Part shown: positions 46,463-62,292 of the stretch, one piece after another
Layout of the letters: each line of letters begins with the position of its first letter
Position numbering within the stretch: the first letter of the stretch is position 1
From: Filosporella fistucella
Taxonomy: Eukaryota; Ascomycota; Leotiomycetes; Helotiales
DNA length: 64,000 nt
Direction of reading: 5' to 3'
Assembly (NCBI GenBank): GCA_030077755.1
Contig: JAQJZZ010000007.1
Span: forward strand, 62,001-126,000
Notes under the pieces: generated by a model
Databases searched by the model: none
Told to the model about the DNA's origin: nothing
What the model saw: only the letters and a program-made list of their open reading frames with translations
Translations under genes and position numbers: made by a program

Positions 46463-48065
46463 ATGGCAAAGACCAAGGAATCTAAGACTTCTAGCAAGTC
46501 CAAGGCTGAGGTCAAATCACTTTCAGCTGTCAAAAATGCGTCTATCACTAAGCCTTCTCAGACTCCCAATGCCAAATCAAAGCAAATCGCCAAAGAAACT
46601 GCTACCAAGGTCAGCAGCAAGAAGGCATCAAAGCCAGTCGTCAAGGCTGCTACCCCATCTTCCGATAGCGACTCTGACTCTGCTTCTGACTCCGAGTCTG
46701 AAGTCGAAGTCAAGAAGGCTGTTGCCACCAATGGAAAGACCAATGGCAAGACCAACAGTGCTGCGAAGAAAGAGGTAGATACCTCTGATTCCTCTGATTC
46801 AGCCTCAGAGGATGATTCCGAGAGCTCCGATTCTGACTCTGGCTCTGAAAAGGCCTCTGCGTCAGAAAGTGATAGTGAAAGCGAATCCGAGTCTGAGGAC
46901 GAGAAGAAGCCTGCCGCAGTCGTCAAGGATGTCGCAAAGAAGGCTGTCGACGCTGGAAAGACTGCTGTAAATGGAGCCGCAAAGGCTGTCGCCAAGGCAA
47001 CTGTATGTATCTTGCTTCCATTCCACTTACACTCTAACGATCAATAGGAGACCTCCGATTCTGAGGCTGACTCTGATGATTCTGACTCATCCGACTCCAG
47101 TGAAGATGAGGCCGAGAAGAAGGATGCATCTGGATCTGATTCCGACTCGAGCGATTCTGAGAGCGAGACCGAAGCCCCAAGCAAGAAGCGTAAGGCCGAA
47201 GATGATGTCGCCGCTCCCGCAAAGAAGACCAAGACCGATGCTGCTGAAGATACTGGATCCAAGAACTTGTTCGTTGGTAACTTGAGCTGGAACATTGATG
47301 ATGAGTGGTTGTACCGTGAGTTTGAGGAATTCGGAGAGATCTCTGGCGCCCGTGTTATCAGCGACAAGGCCACTGGACGATCAAAGGGTTTCGGATATGT
47401 TGAGTTCACCAGCTCTGCATCTGCTGCTGCAGCCCTCGCAGCCAAGAAGGGTGCTCTCATTGACGGTCGTGAGGCCAACGTTGATTTCTCTACTCCCCGC
47501 AGCACCGATTCCGCACCAAGAGACCGTGCTCAAAACCGTGCTGCCACTTTCGGAGACTCTCAAAACCCCCCATCTGATACTCTCTTCTTGGGCAACCTTT
47601 CATTCGATGCCAATGAGGACACTGTCGGTGAAGCTTTCGGTGCTCATGGCACTGTTGTTAACGTCAGACTCCCAACTGATATGTGAGTACTTCCACCTGA
47701 TCATAGCATCCACATACTGATTGCATCGTAGGGAGACTGGTAACCCCAAGGGATTCGGATATGTTACCTTCGGATCAATTGACGATGCCAAGACCGCTTT
47801 TGAGGCCATGACCGGTGCTGAGATTGCTGGACGTCCCGTTAGACTTGACTATGCTACTCCTCGTCCTGAACGTGGTGAGGGTGGTGGACGTGGCCGAGGT
47901 GGATTCGGCGATCGTGGAGGACGAGGAGGTGGCCGTGGTGGTGGACGAGGTGGTCGTGGTGGATTTGGTGACCGTGGAGGACGTGGGGGTGCTCGAGGAG
48001 GCCGAGGAGGATCCACCAACAGAGGTGGCTTCGGTGACTTCAAAGGCAAGAAGCAGACTTTTTAA
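46463..48065 (+). CDS. nucleolin-like protein (Nsr1/gar2 type)
   Basis: Three exons, 46463-47002, 47048-47682 and 47732-48065, with introns of 45 and 49 nt; 502 aa. The N-terminal half is Lys-rich with alternating Ser/Asp/Glu acidic tracts (CK2-like SDSDSDS). Two RRM domains follow: RNP2 KNLFVGNL with RNP1 KGFGYVEF, and RNP2 DTLFLGNL with RNP1 KGFGYVTF, the latter spanning the last splice site. The C-terminus is an RGG box (repeated GGRGG/GFGDRGG). Nucleolar protein for pre-rRNA processing and ribosome assembly. The GC-rich RGG coding repeats explain antisense ORFs here. Confidence 0.95.
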
Positions 48066-48738: not shown

Positions 48739-48783
48739 AGTGACGCTCCGCTGGCCCTCCGGGGGCGACTGCCGTCGAGGCCG
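48739..48783 (+). repeat. 45-bp GC-rich dispersed repeat, copy 1
   Basis: Begins AGTGACGCTCCGCTGGCCCT and ends GCGACTGCCGTCGAGGCCG. About 78% GC. Identical to copies 2 and 4. Followed by a pyrimidine-rich stretch. Located 674 bp downstream of the nucleolin-like gene. Confidence 0.95.
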
Positions 48784-50817
48784 CCCCTTCGATCTTCTGA
48801 ATTTCTCACTATTCGAGTCCATGATCTTTGATGAAGTGCGCAGAAACAATGAAACACGGACTTCAGTACTCTAAAGCAATTACTAGAAGTTTAAATTGAA
48901 GTCCAGTTGTATTTTATACTATGAATAAAGTGGAACCCTTGTTTCCATGCTATATGCTACAACATCTAAACGCTGGTTTTACTTGTTGAGGTCATACACC
49001 TCACCACCCAAATCTCAAGGCTCCCTCACCTCATTAACCAAAATCTATCCCAACACTTATGTACACAAAGTGGTATACTTTCTGTCTCTCCTACTTTCGC
49101 GATAACTTGCTCTATAATACTTCAACTCTAAAAGTTCAGGGGAAAGTCACCGTGTGCGGGCATAGGGATTAGTTCGGGTTCAGCTAGGTCTTCTAAATAC
49201 CTTCGACCTATGAATCGTGAGAAAGTAGATCGAGCACACGTGTGCTTAATGTTTGTCGTTATCGAAAGAAGAGGTCAGTAAAGACTAGGAAACCCCAAAC
49301 TTTAAATGAGTCATGGAAAATATATTTCCACTCTTTTCTAGGCATGGGAAACAAATAGTCACATTTGGGGCCTCAAACAATTGCAAAATGCGTGCCTTGA
49401 AAACGTTACACCAGACTCAGGTTGCCAGTGGAAGATGTATTCAAGTTTGAACTTTTCCTTCCATATCATTAAGTTTACCCCGCATCGTGAGTGAAGAGCA
49501 ATTGCAACCATGACTTTCGGAGTGATATTTAAGCACATGACGGAGCAAATTCTTCCATATCTGCCATATGCGTACTCGCATTGTCTGTCAAGCGTCCTCG
49601 TATTTCGCATCGCTACCATCATCTCGCAAGCCAACCCAAGTGGCGTAACACAAAACGTGAAGGCGCAAACCATGAAAATTTTCTTCAATTTAGATTACCT
49701 GACGTTTACAACGTCGAAAGATAACTAATCACTCCATCAGCGTATATGCCTAGCCAAATATTCTTGAATGGAGTGTATATACACGACTTCGCTGAAATTA
49801 GGAGTTGGAAAATCTGACTCGAGGTGAAAATTAGACTAAAAATGTCCGAGGTGACCTTGCTACGATCGTATCTTGACTTGGGGCAAACCCGGCCGGATTC
49901 TCTTCGGTACATCTTCCACCATTCCAAGAAAAGCCAGCAATCTGATATTGCATTTACCAAAAGACCGAAGGTGGGTCTTCCGGGAAATGGCCAGACTGAT
50001 GTGTTAACTTGCACTTCCTAAATTGACCTCTTATTCTTCAAGTGGGAATAGGAAGACAGAGACAGATTCTCATGTAGTCATGTCATATATGTAGAAAATG
50101 TTGCACCTATTGCACTACCAAATACTTCAGTTTATGGTTCAATACAATAAGGCCTCTCCCGTGTTGGATGATGGTAAACTCAGCCCCAGCCAAGGATTCC
50201 AATCATCCCATCTTCTGAAACAAGTAGAAAAGATCAAGAAATGGCCCTGTCACAAAACTGGGCGTTTTCCAGCTGTTTTCATATAGAGTATTAGTGGGTC
50301 TCGCCAAGCGAGTTTATCCCAAGGTGGAAGCATTTCAATGCTTTGGTACTCCTGCCAAGGACTTAACATCATCCTGCCAAGCGAAACGGAAATATCGTTC
50401 AGATCAAGCAATGCTTCCCTCGGAGCGCTCCGGCTAACATCCAAACATAACAGGAGTTTGCCCGGTCAAAGATTTCTTCCTCCACTTACATATCGCTTTC
50501 TCATTCCACATCGTCCATTCTGGATACCAAATCTTCTGAGCCAAGATTTCCAAGCATTGGCAGTACTTGAACAAGAGGATGCCCAGAAAAATAGAGGCTT
50601 CGATTGCACCCCTTAACTTATCTTCGTGAGGCTGTTCCTCGCAAACATGTTCCCAACAGCAGGTTAAGCTTGTTCTATGCTCATTCTAGCTGGTACTTTA
50701 TTATCTTACAATTTAGCTTGCTTTCAGGTATAGTGAATTGAGAATTCTATAGCAGACAGCTGACAAAATTCGGGAGGGGAATTGCCTCGAATTTAATCCG
50801 GTGGAGCAGAAAGGTGG

Positions 50818-50825
50818 TATATAAG
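50818..50825 (+). promoter_or_regulatory. TATA box of the pectate lyase gene
   Basis: TATATAAG, about 140 bp before the ATG and followed by a CT-rich leader, the usual arrangement for an inducible fungal gene. Confidence 0.65.
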
Positions 50826-50963
50826 TCTCTCTTCTATTCTTGTTAATTCTCTCCTCACCAACCTTCATTCGTCTTTACATTCGTTTTCTACATTCTTTAC
50901 AGATCTCGCATCTATTTCACTCTTTACAACAAGTTTCAGTCTTTTAAGATACTAGCCATCAAA

Positions 50964-51776
50964 ATGCAATTCTCAGCTACCGTCCTCGCCGCCATCATGG
51001 CCACTCTTGTCTCTGCGCAGACTCTCAACATTCCTGCTCGCTCTGGAAGCATCATCTCCCTCTCAGCTCCTATGAGCATCTCTGGTGTCAAGGATATGGG
51101 CAACAAGGAGTACGACCGTGGACGTGCTTGCAACACTGATGATGATACTGGATCCGACTCTGCTGTCTTCATCCTCAAGGATGGTGCTACCCTCTCCAAC
51201 GTTATCATTGGTGTCAAGCAACTTGAGGGTGTTCACTGTGAGGGTGCTTGCACCTTGAAGAACGTCTGGTTCCGTGATGTCTGCGAAGGTAAGATAACTC
51301 CAGCCTTCTATCTTCTTCAACCTTCTATTTCTACCAAAATATACTAACTCACTCCCTTAGATGCCATCACCCTCAAAGGAACAGGCAGCGTCCTCATCCA
51401 AGGAGGCGGAGCCCAAAACGCAAAGGACAAAGTCGTCCAACACAACGGCAAAGGCACCGTCACCATCAAAGACTACACCGTCGTCTCAGTCGGCAAGCTC
51501 TTCCGCTCATGCGGCAACTGCTCCAAGAACGGCGGCCCACGTAACGTCATCGTCCAGAACCTCAAGGCCAACGGCGTCACTGCCGATGTCGTGGGCATCA
51601 ACTCCAACTACGGAGATGTGGCTACCATCTCAGGCTCCTGTGGAAAGAGCGTCAAGCACGTCTGCCAGGAATTCAAGGGTATTCTCAAGTCTGAGGGTGG
51701 AGAGTCCCCAAAGCTTTCTACTACCAAGAACTGCCAGGGTGCTCAGGGAAAGCTTAGCACTCTTCCTGCTTGTTAG
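50964..51776 (+). CDS. secreted pectate lyase, PL3 family
   Basis: Two exons, 50964-51288 and 51361-51776, with a 72-nt intron; 246 aa. Signal peptide [18 protein letters not shown]. The mature enzyme shows PL3 features: [15 protein letters not shown], then [27 protein letters not shown] across the splice, [18 protein letters not shown], and KLFRSCGNC. Regularly placed Cys residues suit an extracellular right-handed beta-helix. Cleaves de-esterified pectin (polygalacturonate) by Ca-dependent beta-elimination. Confidence 0.94.
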
Positions 51777-52068
51777 AGGGGGATTTTGCTCAAGTGGAAG
51801 GAGTGGTGAGAGGTTATCAATGTGAGGAGAGGATGACAATTCTTGTACCTAGGCTTTGGCTTGGAAGTTGGCAGCGAGTATGCTGGCTGATACTTACCCT
51901 TTTTGTGTATATACTTCACCGGCGAGTCCGGTGTACCGGACCGGATATCATGCTGGAATAATGAACGGGTTCGATCTATATGTTGTCTTTCCTGCTGCGA
52001 TACTTTCCCACACCTTCCCTTCCTCATTCCCTCAACTGCTTTCCCCCATCTCCCCATCCCCTCTCCGA
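51777..52068. other. convergent intergenic spacer
   Basis: 3' flanks of the pectate lyase and PEBP genes. Confidence 0.5.
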
Positions 52069-52936
52069 CTAATTACTCAAAACCCAATTCCCCGCCACAA
52101 CCTCCCCCAATCCAGCCTGCTTCTTAAACCCCCCTAAATCAAATCTAATCCTCTTCCGGACCCCCACCTTCCCCCCATCAGGTGGTGCAAACCTCTCTGT
52201 TGCAAAATCCACAGGCTGTTTATAGAGTAAAAACACATAGCGATGTGGCGCGCTCCATGGTGGAGGACCAGGGGGGGCGTAGTCGACTAGAGGTGGGGTG
52301 GTGGTGGTGAGCGTTGTTTCTGATGAGGAGGAGGAGTTTTGGAGTGAGAGGGAGAGGGAGGCTTGGATCCCTAGTTGTGAAAAGTATCAGTAATGTATAA
52401 GACCCAGACGACCATGCTGATTTCCCAGCCAAATTCAATTCCCCTCCCAACCCACTCGTAAGTGACGCTCCGCTGGCCCTCCGGGGGCGACTGCCGTCGA
52501 GGCCGTCTTTTCTTCTCTCCATATCCCTTTATCATCCCATCATCTCACAACTTTCCCAAAGAAAGAAAAAATAGCGAAAAAATAGCGGAAAATAAAAAAT
52601 ACTAACAATGCAATGCCGGACTCAACGCCCTCCACGCCGGAAACGGCGCATCGATATCAAGACACACAACTATATATTTCTCTCCCGCCACCGCTGAAGA
52701 GAAATTGATATTCGGTGGATTTTGCGCTTCTAATTAAAGCTAAGGATTAGTTTTTAGTTTCTGGTTTATATCTAGGTTAGGAGGGGAGGGATAGAGAGGG
52801 TATACGTGCCATTTTTAGGAATATATTGCCCTGGCGAGACTTTCACATTTGAGAAGGTCAAATTGAGAAGTTTAGATTGATCTTCTGCATCGAAAAAGGT
52901 AGGAAGCAGGGATTCGATGTGTGCCATATCCGGCAT
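52069..52936 (-). CDS. PEBP (phosphatidylethanolamine-binding) family protein
   Basis: Exons 52810-52936, 52607-52729 and 52069-52370 give 183 aa. Start MPDMAHIESLLPTFF; then LTFSNVKVSPGQYIPKN; exon 2 has AQNPPNINFSS and YIVVCLDIDAPFPAWRALSPALHW (ligand-site region 1, with D-x-D-A-P). Exon 3 contains PPLVDYAPPGPPPWSAPHRYVFLLYKQP (region 2, G/A-x-HRY). The 236-nt intron between exons 2 and 3 (52371-52606, donor GTTAGT) is about five times the local norm and contains copy 2 of the 45-bp repeat. The first intron only keeps frame with a GC donor (GCACGT), so exon 1's exact end is uncertain. Family members bind phospholipid headgroups or act as kinase/protease regulators. Confidence 0.85.
52461..52505 (+). 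repeat. 45-bp GC-rich dispersed repeat, copy 2, inside an intron
   Basis: Identical to copies 1 and 4. Lies within the second intron of the PEBP gene, in antisense orientation to that gene. Followed by GTCTTTTCTT-type pyrimidine-rich sequence. Confidence 0.95.
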
Positions 52937-55900
52937 CTTCAAGATCTAGATTTTCCCCGCGGAGGAAAATAAATGAGCTTGCGATGAATGATATATCAGA
53001 AAATAAAAACCATTCCTTCATTTCATAGACTCGAACACTTATCTAAACGTTACGATTTCCATGGAATATATACAGACCCTGGAGTTAAACATATATCTTC
53101 ACTCGTCTATTTCCGAGACCTCGGCGCTCTAGCGACCGGTTCCCGATGAGTGTGGAGTTATGTCCGTAAACGCCATTTCGTGTTCCTATTGGACGATGAT
53201 TTTTGCGATATACTATTGGAAGGTGTAGAAGTAAAGGAGGGGAGAGGATGGGTGTGTGTGAATGGTGGAGGGTACCAAAGCAGTCTCTGGTGAGGCCATG
53301 GGGAGGTCGACTGTTTGGGATTTTCTTTTTAGAGGGGAAGGGTTGCGATGAGGCGAGGTGAGGTGAGGGGAGGGTGAGATTTTTTTGAGAGTATAAGATG
53401 ATATCTTAATAAGAGATGCGGTGGGATAGAGAATGATAGCGCTAAATGACCACTACTGGATATTATCGCCTTGTTACGCTCGATTTATGCCTGCTCTCTA
53501 GAGGTGTGATAATCTATTACTATAGAAGATTGCATATATGTATCAATACATGGGATTAAAAATCAAGTAATAGGTTCTTGGAGAGTTTTTCACAGTACGA
53601 GATAGTGAGCGTGAGGGAGGTAAAGATCGAAGATAAGAACTCAATAATAAGAGTGGTGATAGAAGAGAAGTTTGAGAAATAGGATAAGGAAGATGGATTA
53701 GATATTTCTATCCCACCAATACCTTTATTACGACAGGAAAGGAGAAATAGGTTAGAAACTGAACTAGGTTACTTTCCATGTAGCCTTACTACAATTCCGC
53801 CTATTCGATGTGTAGCACACAGAAACTTCGAAAAGAACAACATCTGAACTCCTACTTTGCATACTGTAATACCAGGGCCTCTCTCATCGGATTAAGAGAG
53901 GTAATCCAGTATATAAAACCACAAAGCTATTCAAACTTGACAGGAAAATCGGTTTGACAGCTGTAAGCTCGCACTCTTTTGATAGGACCTAGCTGGTAAT
54001 CATCTAGAATGCGTTGGAGAGGTTAACGAGTTCACCTGATACTTTCTTTGGATGTTTGGATTTTGGCGTGTCTTTTGTAGGGAAAGCTGAGGGGCTATGG
54101 CTTTCTTTTGGTAAGATGTGGTGGTGGTGGCAAGTCAGGTTTTGGTGATGAGGTTTGGTATGAGGTGGGTCTGAGGGATTTGGCCAGATGAAAGGACGTA
54201 TTGCTTTCTACTGCTCTAGCCTAACATAAGCTGAGGAAATATATTCTTAGCACTACCTTATCACAGCACCAACGTGCAACACAGTAAATCTCTCCCAAAC
54301 ACAGATATCATAAAATCTTCAACCCAGACCCCCTCCCAACCGTCCGAGCACACAAACACAAACTCTCAATAGCACGAAAGAAAAATCGCCACATTCAAGG
54401 CATTCTCCAAACTCAAACACTGACACAAGACTTACAAACACAAGCTAATGGAACAACAGAAAAGTTGATCACACTTCTAATATCACAAGGCAGATTCTTA
54501 CACCCACATGCCGGCCGACCAACAGAGCGGACGCTTTCTGGCCGCAGGAGGCTGGACGAAACCTGGATGGATGGGGATAGCAACCAACACTCGGCGGAAA
54601 GATGAAACGACGAGGGGGAAAAGGGAGATGTTCAGCTGATGGGAATAGGAGTGATGTGATGGACTGATTTGGAATGGATGCGAGGGTAAGGAGAAGATGA
54701 ATGAATGTGTGAGAGACGAAAATGTGATTGGGGGCAAATCGTCCCTTTCCAAGCCAAGTACCTATGCAGCGAACGTCTCATCCGGTGAACTACCCAACAG
54801 AGATCTAAAAAGACACCTCAATCTCCCAACGCTCGCTAGAGGGGTTCCAGTACTCAGGAGAAAAAAGAGGCACAGTACAGATATTCATAGAAGCTTAACG
54901 CAAGGCAAAGTAAAGTAAAGTAAGGCTCTTCCCACCTGCTCCGGCGCAAAAGGCAGAACGAGATAAGAATAAACTGCAGAATATTAATTACTGAGTCTGT
55001 AAATAACCGGTAGACGCAGCCGCGAGGAAGAATAGGGGGACGAGGGAATAAATTATCAATATGGAGGACCGTTGGGTTGGGAATGGGACGGGGAAGGGTG
55101 GATGTATGGCGGTTGAAAGCGACCTCGAGCGATATGAACATCGTGATGGCCAGCCTCGACGGCAGTCGCCCCCGGAGGGCCAGCGGAGCGTCACTCTCTC
55201 TGGGATGAAGAGGAAGAGTGTTATTGAAGAAACTAGCTCATTTGTGCAGAGTTCCGAGGCTTATAGTGGATTCCCTTATTTAGGGTCTTATCTGCTGTGC
55301 AGCATTCAATCGGTAGATGGGATGGAAATGATATTATCTCTGATGTTGGACTCATCTTCGCTCAGAATGGTTTCCCAGGTGAAGAAGCGAGACTTGGTAG
55401 GAACCTATATCTATCTGTCAGTACCTACCTTGGTATGGAGGAATGCTAAAAAGAGGCTCAATATAGATTCCCTTGACAGATGCTCGCGCGAGGGTGCAAA
55501 ATATAAATAAATGCTGATTGATGAAGGTGTGTGTCTGTGTGTGAAATAGGCGCGAGGAGGTGGGATGGGAAAGGGTGGTTGTGCATCCGGGGAGGCGATG
55601 GGACGGAATATTAATAGAAGTGGGTGAATGGGTGAAGTGACGGGGCAAGAATGTTGGTAGCGAGTGTTGTACTTGTACTGTACCTATGTATAGTGGCTGG
55701 GTGGGGTGGTTTCTTTTTTCTTCTTTGGTTTCTTCAGCGGCAGCGGCAGCGGCTGTGGCCGTTTGGGACGGACGATGCGACCGATGGGCTTTGTGGGTTG
55801 TTTGGGTGAGGAGGAAATTGAATGTTAGAATATTTATGAAAAAGGTGCTGAATTGGAATACAAGTACCTGCAAGTAATAGCTGTATAGAATGGGTAACCG

Positions 55901-57327
55901 CATGCACTTTTCTGACACAGTAATCTCTTGTCTCCACCACAATTGCTTATGGCTTTTCCCCATACTTTTCGATTTCCTTACTATTCAGATCGAATCGGAA
56001 CAGATCAGTAAAATGTTTCGCAGTCTTACGCAGCACCAATAATATCTCAATATCAATCTAAACATTGTTCCCTTTTCCTTTTTCTATTCGTAGAATCTGC
56101 AGCGAAGGAAGCGACTGCGCCTCGGGATGGACTTGGTACCCGCCACTAAGCCCCTATTCAGCCTAGTTCAGCCATTGCCGAGGATGAGATGGAAGAGGAA
56201 GGGAGGGTAAGACGGTACGGGCTATTTGTTGCATCATGAAGGACACAGGGTGATCTGATCATGGTGATCCATTACTGCGATTACTGTCTGACTGTCTGAC
56301 TGTATACAATTTACATCGGTGAATGCATGTAGATAGTAGGGATGGAGTAAGTATGGTGGGATAGATGAGATCGTACCTCATGATGAAATGGTATTGAGGG
56401 AATGAGGGTGAATGAGAATACACAAAGGAAGCAGAAAGTTCAGAGTTCAAGGCTAGTGGGGGGCGGTGCGGAAGGGTGACATTTCTTCCCATGCAGAATA
56501 TGCAGATACTGTAGGTACCCCACCCAGTCCGGTGTGCTACTGCAGGCAAGATAATTGACGAGCAGCCGACTGGCGCAGAGACGCAAGGTTGGAAGAAAGC
56601 AGGGAATAGAAAGACCACACCACTGCAGAGAATGGAAGTGCGAAAGACTCGAAAGACTCGATCTTGTCATTCAATCATTCAATGACATGGGGGATACCAC
56701 ACCATTACGCCTTTGTACCACCCGGTTACAGTCCTTCTTTACTATACTCGGCCATACTCAACCACATTCTACCACACTCATCCACCCTTCACCTCCATCC
56801 CAGTCTTCCTACCCGCTCCCAAGTGGCTGAGATGCTCTTCCATGCAGAATCTACAGTAAAAGTACAATACCTACCTAGTACGAGCAGCAGCGGACCCGCG
56901 GCAGACCCCGGATTAGTTGCATCCAGGCACGGGCACAGCAAATCCAAAGATAAGTAAGAGTAAATTTATACCGCCCGAAGTGACTATGATAGGTAAGGTA
57001 TGGTCAGATCAGTTCACTTCACTTGCATACTAGTATACCAAGGTGTACTAGTAGTCACGATCACTCACATTTATTTGCGTGTGTGTTGCTTGTTGTTGGT
57101 CAATTGACTTTCACCTCCCCCCAACCCACACCCTCCTCACACCCCTCCCCTCTCAGCCTCGCCCCTCATACCTTGCCCATACCTCCCTCGACCATTCCAT
57201 GACCACTTTAGCAATTGGCCATTGACAAACTTCCATATGTAACCTCTGTCTCCCAGCAACCCCCGACCTTGATCGAGAATCTCTTTTGTTCCTACCCGCC
57301 AACTCTACTTCGAAACATCAACTCAAC
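52937..57327. other. 4.4-kb non-coding region
   Basis: No recognisable gene. Purine-rich and pyrimidine-rich low-complexity stretches alternate. ORFs at 54498-56957 overlap on both strands and lack domains. Contains copy 3 of the 45-bp repeat. The last part is probably a long promoter and leader for the membrane protein at 57328. Confidence 0.6.
55151..55195 (-). repeat. 45-bp GC-rich dispersed repeat, copy 3, inverted
   Basis: Reverse-complement copy with a single mismatch at 55152 relative to the other three. No gene within 2 kb on either side. Confidence 0.95.
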
Positions 57328-59160
57328 ATGTTTCTATCAGGAAGAGCTTCGACCGATTGCCTGGGCACAAATCAATCAGGTCAGAAGCAGTTGTGGTATA
57401 CTTGCAACTCGAATAACTTCAGAGGTTGCTGTTCAGTGGATCCATGCAGTCTACCTACTTGTCCTGATACCATGGCGAGTTCAGCAGCTTTGGTAACGAC
57501 GACCTTGACTTTGGCTCCTGCACCAGCAAAGACGAGCGAGTCTTCTTCGTCAACATCAACTTCGACCTTCACAACTTCCTCGACGCCTGTACCTTCACCA
57601 GTAGCTGCTACATCATTGTACAACAGTCAAGTATCATCAACGTCTGTTTCGGCGCCAATTACAACCTCAACCTCATCTTCAAATCTGACATCCAAAAACT
57701 CGACAACTCCAATTATTGCCGGTGTCGTTGGTGGAGTAGGATTTATCACATTACTCGCGGCTCTGATCTGGTTCTGTCTACGAAGAAGAAATCAAAAGCA
57801 GTTACAAGCACGAAGAGATTCTATTGCACAATATGGCCTCCCAAACAAAGATTTCATTCTCGACCTCCCACCAAAATCAGAACGTAGCTCTGAAGGGGAT
57901 ATCTTTGCCGCATACGGAGGTATGTTTCCCTCTTCCATTCCATGACCACAATCTAACCACATATCAGGCCGTTATGAATCACCTCGTCCCGTCCCGTCAA
58001 TCCCAACCCCATTGTCGCCACCTTTACCTCTAGACCAGAGATCATACCAACAATACCCTCAACAAACCAACCAACTTCACATTACACCAGCTCCTCCCTC
58101 AACTCACCCACCTACTCCATCCACCCCAGCAGAAGACAAACATATCCCTGATCCGGAGAAAACGGCTGCTGTCCGCGCCGAGCCACCACTTACTTCCCAC
58201 CCAGCATATCACGCCGTCCCGCAATACTCTCCCCCTCTCGCCTCACCTGCCTGGTTACCGGATCAAACTACACACCAACTTCACTCCTCTCACTCGACAC
58301 CTCATCTCTCTTCCCTCCCTTCCCATCCAACACACCACATCGCCTCTTTATCAACACACCCCGCTTTCCGCGTCCCCTCAGCAGAAGAACTACGCATCAA
58401 ACATGCCTCCTTCCCCCGTCGTTCACCAGAGATAAAACACAAACCTCAATTCCGATCTCCCAAGCCCTCTCCAAGAACTTCACCTAATTCCTCTCCTCCC
58501 CGCCATGGCAAGCGTAACGCTCGGGGTTTTCAATCCGTGTCTCCAAATAGGAATAAATCCCCTATCCCAGGAAAGATAGAGCTAGAAGCAGAAACAGTAC
58601 CTGCTTCTTATCTGTCCCCTCTTCAGACAAGCTCTATCTCTGAGACCAGAGAGAGAGAACGAGGAAGATACGATGAGCGATTATATCCTTCCTCACAAGA
58701 AAAAGGCGATGGAGAGATGAAAAGGGGAAACACGGAGGCGAGTACATATAGTATTCCCATCGGACTAGGTTTCTCTTCTGCCTCACCCGACGAATCTCAA
58801 ATCCAACAAAACCAGCTCCAAGAAACCACAACATCCCCCCTCATCTCGCCGCAAACCCCAGCCTCCTCGCAAATGATCGGTCCCCTCGGTCCCTCCCTCA
58901 CGTCCCCTACGCTAGATACATGCGATTACGCCTACAGTATTCGCAGCATGCGTGTCGTAGACGGGGAAGGCAGAGATGAGAAGGAGGTCGTGAGTCCTGT
59001 CGTTAGTCCGATGAGTCCGGAGATGGGACTAGGTTCTTTCGCGCTGGAGAGGGAGAGGTGGAGTGGTGCTACTGTTGTTGCTGAGAATGGGGAGTTGGGG
59101 TTAGGGCTGGGGAAGGAGGGGAGAGAAGATGGGAGGAGATGGTGGGGTGTTAGACGGTAG
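57328..59160 (+). CDS. single-pass membrane protein, Cys-rich head and Ser/Thr stalk (sensor-like)
   Basis: Two exons, 57328-57919 and 57968-59160, with a 48-nt intron; 594 aa. The N-terminal extracellular part has a Cys-rich motif (CLGTNQSGQKQLWYTC then GCCSVDPC..PTCPD). A Ser/Thr-rich stalk follows, as in O-mannosylated wall sensors. One transmembrane helix (IIAGVVGGVGFITLLAALIWFCL) is followed by RRRN, which marks the cytosolic side. The long cytosolic tail is Pro/Ser-rich and disordered with SPxxSP motifs. No clear signal peptide precedes the Cys head. The layout recalls Mid2/Wsc-type cell-wall stress sensors or mucin-like proteins, but no direct homology to them is seen. Confidence 0.8.
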
Positions 59161-59240
59161 TTTTCTTCTTTATGTTTTTGGACTGGAGAGAGGAGATGGA
59201 TGAAGATGACGGGGAATTGTAGATTATGATTAATTGTAGC

Positions 59241-59260
59241 ATAGCATAGCATAGCATAGC
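59241..59260 (+). repeat. ATAGC microsatellite, four units
   Basis: Four perfect tandem pentamers, 80 bp after the stop codon of the membrane protein gene. Confidence 0.85.
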
Positions 59261-59505
59261 GCGGCGTTCAAGGGGCTTTTGCATAAGGCGGCGTATGGAG
59301 TTACAGTACACTCTTTCTTTTCTTTCTAGCGATTTGGCGCAATGGGTGTAGAAAGGAGTGTAAAAAATGAATACAATGATAATGTTAACATTTTGATTCT
59401 GGTCTTTTTGTGAATCTATTTTTTCTGACAATGACATTATGCAATTCAGCTCAGATAGAGGGGGAATGGTGTATCGAGAAATATATCAGCTACGTACAAA
59501 TACCA

Positions 59506-59550
59506 AGTGACGCTCCGCTGGCCCTCCGGGGGCGACTGCCGTCGAGGCCG
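59506..59550 (+). repeat. 45-bp GC-rich dispersed repeat, copy 4
   Basis: Identical to copies 1 and 2, in strongly AT-rich surroundings 346 bp downstream of the membrane protein gene. Followed by a pyrimidine-rich stretch beginning TCCTTTCTTTC. Confidence 0.95.
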
Positions 59551-61557: not shown

Positions 61558-62292
61558 TTAATTGCCATAGCCCATTAGTTTCATGATTTCGTCGAGCAGT
61601 TCTTGAAGATCGTCGTCGTTTATTTTGTCTTGGAGGGAGGGGATGAGGGTTTTGGCTTCTTCGGCTGTGTCGCAGCAGAGGCTGCCTGGAGGGGGTTAGC
61701 TGTAGTTTTTATATGGCTGCACTTTCGTTTTGTAGTGGTAGATTCCAAATATTGACTGGAAGTAGAGCTTGAGTCGAGGGAATTGGGTGTAGGACGTACC
61801 AAGTTGTGCTCTTTCAAACTTAGCCAACTCCTTGTGAGAGGAAAGTAATCGTTCTACCGCCTCGACATTCTCCTTCCTCTTGAACCGCGCAAAGTGATCC
61901 AGATACTCCGTTGTTTTCATCAGCATTCTATCTCTCGTTAGCCATGCTCTCTTCTCTCCAGATCCAAAGGCCCAAATTTCCCTCCAAAAGCACAATATCA
62001 TTGCTATGTCTTATCCCAAACCCAAATGCCCAGCTCTTGACCTTCCTCGTAAAACAGAACAACATCCAGATCCTCCATCTCTGTATATAGTAGGGAAATC
62101 CACATACTCAGTCTCATTGACGTTCTTCTTATCCATCCTCCTCCTAGCCATCAGCGCATTTATAACCAACGCAGCCTCACTATGTGTCAAAGCATCCACA
62201 TCCTGGAATTCTCCAAGTCGCAACTCTGAAGCTGCTTCTTCGTCTCCTTGAGGTGCTTCACGCGATCGAGAAGTAGGAGCTGGTTGTGCCAT
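61558..62292 (-). CDS. RPB4: RNA polymerase II subunit RPB4
   Basis: Three exons, 62108-62292, 61800-61927 and 61558-61685, with introns of 180 and 114 nt, joined in phase; 146 aa. Conserved segments are LRLGEFQDVDALTHSEAALVINALM, MLMKTTEYLDHFARFKRKENV, EAVERLLSSHKELAKFERAQLGSLCCD across the second splice, and AEEAKTLIPSL ending with LQELLDEIMKL. RPB4 forms the stalk of Pol II with RPB7. Divergent from the Trs23 gene. Confidence 0.95.

Follow-up and report, generated by a model that had tools for sequence, protein, structure and literature searches.

A 41-bp GC-rich core dispersed in a fungal nuclear genome, mostly in sense beyond the ends of unrelated genes

Short interspersed nuclear elements (SINEs) with a conserved central domain combine a short conserved block with diverged outer parts over a few hundred bp, while fungal miniature inverted-repeat transposable elements (MITEs) are short, non-coding, dispersed and found near genes. 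The double-hairpin elements of fungal mitochondria are short GC-rich units thought to be mobile. Mobile units as small as the GC42 cluster of yeast mitochondria are known from organelles, and how they move is unsettled; GC42 is intergenic at 82 of 89 positions, has a putative AG target-site duplication and concentrates its changes in loops (PMC4478555). Here we describe a GC-rich core of 41 bp that occurs four times in a 64,000-nucleotide (nt) stretch of the Filosporella fistucella genome, hereafter the window (positions 62001–126000 of contig C6; genome of 45.8 Mb in 19 contigs), and the family to which these copies belong. The core is a discrete unit with sharp borders, both dispersed and clustered in the genome, which stands alone or inside a larger non-coding repeat. 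It mostly sits in sense a few hundred nt past the open reading frame (ORF) ends of unrelated genes.

The four window copies (Table 1) had been noticed in a sequence-only reading, and their coordinates, the identity of three of them over 45 bases and the single change in the inverted one were verified. A pattern search of the window returned these four matches and none in 100 shuffles. That reading had noticed no copy in the other 53 kb, and a permissive profile scan of the whole window gave no fifth one: the next score is 7.6 bits against 54.8–56.2 bits for the four. The word is not particular to the 11-kb stretch in which alone it had been noticed, since matches were found genome-wide. Thirty-nine genomic places match over 43 bases with at most 3 mismatches, 65 match a 29-base core, and 75 and 69 match the 5′ and the other 23-base half, respectively, with no match to the reversed pattern in any of these searches; the 5′ half is exact at 50 of its 75 places. 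The genome-wide count that the sequence-only reading had proposed thus stands at 78 known places, made up of the 75 copies studied here plus one half copy, one decayed copy and one cut copy. The family is nuclear: the copy-bearing contigs with a stated size span 1.3–6.2 Mb and carry nuclear-type protein genes. Intron-bearing genes and a pectate lyase lead us to place the genome among the filamentous ascomycetes.

The conserved core was taken as 41 bp because position 42 is off-consensus in 14 of 65 copies, more often than any of positions 1–41. Thirty-seven of the 65 copies are exact across all 41 bases. The base directly 5′ of the core is a purine in 65 of the 75 copies and the next base out in 70, while the 3′ side reads NG followed mostly by a tail of purines (RGARG) or of pyrimidines (like TCTTTTC). 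The pyrimidine-rich tract reported after three of the window copies is present. Of the earlier description of a GC-rich core in an AT-rich stretch, the first half stands, with a core of about 79% GC, and the second does not, the 11-kb stretch having 46.5% GC against 46.3% in the preceding window DNA. Copies tend to lie close to one another, with 17 neighbour gaps of at most 25 kb among the 78 places against 3.2 expected and a maximum of 12 in 5000 simulations, contig borders being ignored. The copies at C13:2779381 and C13:2779558 both lack one base of the G run, as does one C4 copy (L107). The two C13 copies (L104, G000:C13:2779250–2779710) are convergent and 177 bp apart, and the G lost from the central run in both is a second variant common to neighbours.

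Adapters can put short identical words into unrelated flanks. That the whole family is an assembly or library artefact of this sort is nevertheless scarcely credible, as its copies have private substitutions and indels, its decayed forms sit inside a decayed repeat, and its copies are oriented relative to genes. To our knowledge the core resembles no adapter, a statement made with no search of an adapter library.

Direction relative to genes was followed in the 57 of 75 copies whose flanks are long enough for ORF analysis. The longest upstream ORF is on the strand of the core in 47 of 55 copies when it has at least 120 amino acids (aa), in 36 of 39 at 180 aa or more, in 29 of 31 at 200 aa or more and in all 23 at 250 aa or more. 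Downstream ORFs have no strand preference (sense/antisense, 18/18 at 120 aa or more and 4/6 at 180 aa or more), and 400 random points between window ORFs, used as a control, gave sense:antisense counts of 150:179, 110:113 and 54:44 at 120, 180 and 250 aa or more, respectively. At the 180-aa threshold, the bias is found both in copies with a left flank from the larger repeat (11 of 11) and in those without it (25 of 28). The core starts 164–934 nt from the end of sense ORFs of at least 180 aa, some of these ends being possibly intron borders instead of stops; at L061, a domain-bearing ORF of 168 aa ends just 66 nt 5′ of the core. The spread or upkeep of the short repeat seems to be tied to transcription.

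Forty sense upstream ORFs were compared with Pfam: 24 have a domain that exceeds the curated cut-off, and two more have one below it. With L061, L054 and two window genes added to the 24, a domain-bearing sense gene lies upstream of 28 of the 57 copies. Antisense upstream ORFs of 150 aa or more number 17; all were scanned, giving one match above the cut-off (L083) and one just below it (L007). Downstream, 3 of the 9 sense ORFs scanned out of 11 have domains, as do 4 of the 11 antisense ORFs scanned out of 13 and a twelfth, which is also the host of a neighbouring copy. At L007 (G000:C7 near 2011086), the copy seems to lie antisense within an intron, placed by eye, of a gene for a zinc-binding dehydrogenase, and the exon frame is 27 nt away.

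The host genes are varied and include those of a ribosomal protein, an arginyl-tRNA synthetase, permeases, glycoside hydrolases and an ATG1-like protein. No common pathway was evident on inspection, no pathway test being made. The idea that hosts are highly expressed genes was set aside, the difference in third-position C being too weak to use: its frequency is 0.30 for 29 host ORFs and 0.23 for 23 further ORFs of the window, among which are chance ORFs. A (CACATA)n array (L076:1301–1414) lies about 170 bases past the copy that follows the gene of ribosomal protein SA.

Five pairs of copies are at most 1 kb apart (one partner being a half copy), and all five are convergent; at L080, the hosts of both copies are domain-bearing convergent genes. 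Between the two L080 copies, positions 1854–1913 look by eye like a tRNA gene of the serine or leucine type over its first half, with no call by ARAGORN. The facing pairs raise the alternative of a DNA site placed after genes, that is a long site for a putative many-fingered protein that would either halt polymerase, as a roadblock terminator, or insulate neighbours, with one site for each partner of a convergent pair. Place and direction match gene ends, and it is the primary sequence that is conserved, not a structure. Such a site is nonetheless distinctly improbable: there are only about 75 copies, whereas a genome of this kind is expected to hold some ten thousand genes; a near-invariant 41 bp is unusually long; and, once a double change peculiar to the window copies is set apart, C-to-T and G-to-A account for 29 of the 46 core changes found in 65 copies, as under neutral decay.

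A larger repeat surrounds some of the copies. Related left flanks are found in 23 of the 75 copies (E < 1e-3, no control match) and related right flanks in 14, the best of them forming a non-coding repeat of about 430 bp that runs from ACAAGTCC to the palindrome TTCCAGCTAAAGCTGGAA; its ends were inspected by eye only. In L021, L014, L034 and L114, the repeat ends in TTCCAGCTAAAGCTGGAA and holds another near-palindrome, of the type CCTAAGGGGAACCCCTTAGG. Inspection of L034 by eye had suggested the hairpin and CTAG of a Helitron-type end, an idea dropped because other copies have no such end. All matches to the body (5), the left end (8) and the right end (7) of the repeat carry the core, in a state that is intact or nearly so, decayed (e.g. 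L114) or cut after about 11 bases (L115). As all repeat matches carry it, the core is therefore an original part of the larger repeat. In 12 chosen copies (66 pairs), the two flanks differ on average by 22% and 27%, and within the core 1.95 of 41 bases differ. Left-flank similarity falls short of significance in 52 copies, of which ten still bear a weak repeat trace on either side. The window copies have none on either flank, and their joined flanks match their own loci only, in agreement with the earlier remark that these flanks share no longer homology. No empty site of a core-only copy was found in the 6 of 48 joined sites searched.

These remnants invite the view of ordinary debris, in which the core is just the best-kept part of an ancient repeat family, SINE- or MITE-like, whose worn remnants are the core-only copies. 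The 23 significant left flanks, the core in every match to either repeat end and the weak trace in some further copies are all as expected of such a history. We consider it very improbable, since wear is unlikely to halt at the same two borders in some 40–50 copies while the 41 bp stay near-perfect, neither side of any window copy bears a trace of the repeat, and the sense bias is left unexplained by wear.

The window copies form a variant of their own. All non-window matches read GGCCACTGCCGTGGAGG or a decayed form of it, and the window four alone have a double change, C-to-G and G-to-C. Because this double change is private to the window copies while their flanks are unrelated, the core has spread locally, and the four most simply descend from one another. 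The double change preserves a four-base hairpin, CCAC/GTGG (CGAC/GTCG in the window form), and breaks a more stable consensus hairpin. The score of the CCAC/GTGG pair exceeds those of all 500 shuffles, yet it rests on this one compensatory event; as support for the hairpin the double change is suggestive only, a rough, uncomputed estimate being a chance of several per cent for such an event somewhere in the family, while as a marker of descent it is stronger. No fold tried has more than one compensatory event; the minimum-energy core fold has no covarying pair, nor do 11 copies of the larger repeat show one. The CGAC/GTCG stem proposed in the sequence-only reading thus agrees with one double change, a single event, and the minimum-energy fold with none. 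Alone, the core folds as its composition predicts (z −0.69 with the consensus sequence, +0.30 with that of the window copies), while 109 nt of the larger repeat, taken from L021, fold better than their shuffles (z −2.15, 4 of 200 as good). Rfam has no family matching the core and none at E ≤ 1 in three loci. The suggestion of a conserved structural RNA is therefore weak: the window variant breaks the stable hairpin, one event is seen, and the 11 repeat copies have no covarying pair.

The chief alternative to a mobile element is that the core acts in place for many host genes, as an RNA element of 3′ untranslated regions or read-through transcripts or as a small RNA cut from them; an old repeat would have dispersed it and selection would preserve the sense copies as their flanks decay. 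The sense siting after genes, the small divergence of the core next to that of its flanks in the 12 copies compared, the weak repeat traces, which would form a continuum of decay, the CCAC/GTGG pair kept through the window double change and the folding of the L021 stretch all speak for it. Against these stand the want of covarying pairs in the minimum-energy core fold and in the 11 repeat copies, core folding no better than composition predicts, the lack of an Rfam match and of an evident common function of the hosts, and window copies that have no larger-repeat trace. On balance we hold action in place to be unlikely. Pairing of the flanks into a long stem was also tried and rejected: L019, L026 and L079 are striking, but the mean is at best slightly better than that of flanks swapped between copies (139 of 2000 permutations as good at 60 nt, 1397 at 25 nt), the number of strongest native flank pairs is close to expectation, and control stretches farther away do equally well.

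Assignment to a described class of elements gave negative results. No excess of inverted or direct repeats lies within 20 nt of the core in the 52 core-only copies, which bears out the earlier statement that target-site duplications and terminal inverted repeats are not obvious. ARAGORN called no tRNA in 54 loci, under bacterial settings that may miss intron-bearing tRNAs, and no A-tail or microsatellite tail was obvious by eye in 10 copies, the right end of the repeat being a palindrome. A coding role had not been obvious and finds no place here either, as no reading frame is common to the copies: a covering frame of at least 120 aa exists in just 7 of 57 copies, the longer frames use differing readings, and two core changes create a stop in one forward frame. 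A protein search with a single frame of one copy gave no candidate sharing three words, an uninformative outcome. Pieces of the core had no exact match in prokaryote genomes, viral contigs or printed papers, exact matches alone being sought, and the literature, as partially covered, held no fitting fungal element of this kind, which does not establish its absence from print.

Taken together, the data lead us to favour, tentatively and at somewhat below even confidence, a nuclear family of very short non-autonomous mobile elements linked to host-gene transcription. The core would be the part recognised by the spreading machinery, and it may stay unchanged in active lineages while flanks drift because that machinery recognises it. 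Insertion, or later survival, would be coupled to transcription from the upstream gene, because read-through from this gene would nearly always copy the sense strand. The core may travel as RNA copied back into DNA or, alternatively, could be inserted into DNA opened by transcription beyond the gene end, and new copies would often settle near their source, as the window cluster suggests. We go further only as an unlikely proposal: a nuclear selfish element of about 41 bp that reproduces via ordinary gene transcripts, lives only where it is read in sense past a gene end, spreads to nearby gene ends and needs only its core.

Several observations weigh against the favoured reading. No target-site duplication is apparent, as flanking direct repeats are not clearly in excess at any offset in the 52 core-only copies. 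No coreless copy or empty site of the repeat was found among its 8 left-end and 7 right-end matches, and presence or absence of the core at a given site was never seen. Slow core change next to fast-changing flanks would equally fit selection on each copy, and so would the 0–1 core change in 7 of the 10 weak-trace copies. L083 and L007 do not follow the sense rule, several convergent settings (L024, L072 and L079) have an antisense ORF as the nearer one, and upstream of the inverted window copy the same-strand ORF, of 188 aa, has no Pfam match. The mobile GC-cluster-like element or short non-autonomous repeat put forward in the sequence-only reading remains the best-fitting of its suggestions and is supported in part, by the private double change, the own-locus flanks and the dispersal with clustering; the genome-wide spread, the larger repeat and the sense siting after genes had escaped it.

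Within the window, the description of the 11-kb stretch as gene-poor holds only in part, as three of the copies trail same-strand genes at the distances given in Table 1. We take the host of copy 1 to be a nucleolin/NSR1-like gene, and the pectate lyase upstream of copy 2 is presumably of the PL3 type. Around the inverted copy, some 4.8 kb (52506–57285) yielded no ORF with a Pfam match, and the longest minus-strand ORF (55418–55963) is chance-like; this segment may be non-coding RNA or empty intergenic DNA.

Table 1. Core copies and neighbouring features in the window (window coordinates)
Feature	Position	Strand	Remarks
Copy 1	48739..48783	+	45-mer; conserved 41-bp core starts at T48741; 675 nt past the stop of the RRM-protein gene
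Copy 2	52461..52505	+	686 nt past the stop of the pectate lyase gene
Copy 3	55151..55195	-	Inverted; single change at core position 42; no convincing host gene
Copy 4	59506..59550	+	347 nt past the stop of the gene ending at 59160
Pyrimidine-rich 3′ tail, TCTTTTC type	52506..52520	+	Follows copy 2; copies 1 and 4 have similar tails
Host gene of copy 1: RRM protein with glycine/arginine-rich tail	46463..48065	+	RRM_1 in 47267–47683; stop codon 48063–48065; exon joins not worked out
Host gene of copy 2: pectate lyase, one intron	50964..51776	+	Pectate_lyase (PF03211) in exon 2; stop TAG 51774–51776; start and intron by eye
Host gene of copy 4: serine/threonine-rich protein with one hydrophobic stretch	57286..59160	+	Two ORFs, probably one intron (by eye); second part without Pfam match

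How such units move would become testable, by means of strains and transcript data, in a nuclear family whose members have sharp borders, flanks without relation to one another, local variants and a strong sense siting after genes. If the selfish-element proposal were true, it would constitute a minimal transcription-dependent mobile unit outside organelles; an in-place role would instead make the core a gene-end signal common to about 75 unrelated genes and new to us. Among described repeats, SINEs with a conserved central domain resemble the present repeat in their conserved block and size, and differ from it in that here no tRNA was called and no RNA family, target-site duplication or obvious tail was found, most copies being the core alone. 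Like fungal MITEs, the family is short, non-coding, dispersed and near genes; unlike them, it has no terminal inverted repeats beside the core and no target-site duplication, and it is strongly oriented to the neighbouring gene. It shares shortness and GC-richness with the double-hairpin elements, which are mitochondrial, while its own two-hairpin fold has one compensatory event. By size, composition and behaviour, the nearest described system is GC42. The two are alike in length (42 and 41 bp), GC-richness, foldability, dozens of copies mostly outside genes and variant lineages, GC42 being mobile by an unproven route (PMC4478555). GC42 is mitochondrial and the present family nuclear; GC42 has a putative two-base duplication and none was found in the 52 core-only copies here; and the sense bias after genes belongs to the present family, the word "orientation" being absent from the main text on GC42 (PMC4478555). 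The present family is thus like GC42 in outline and is not a member of it.

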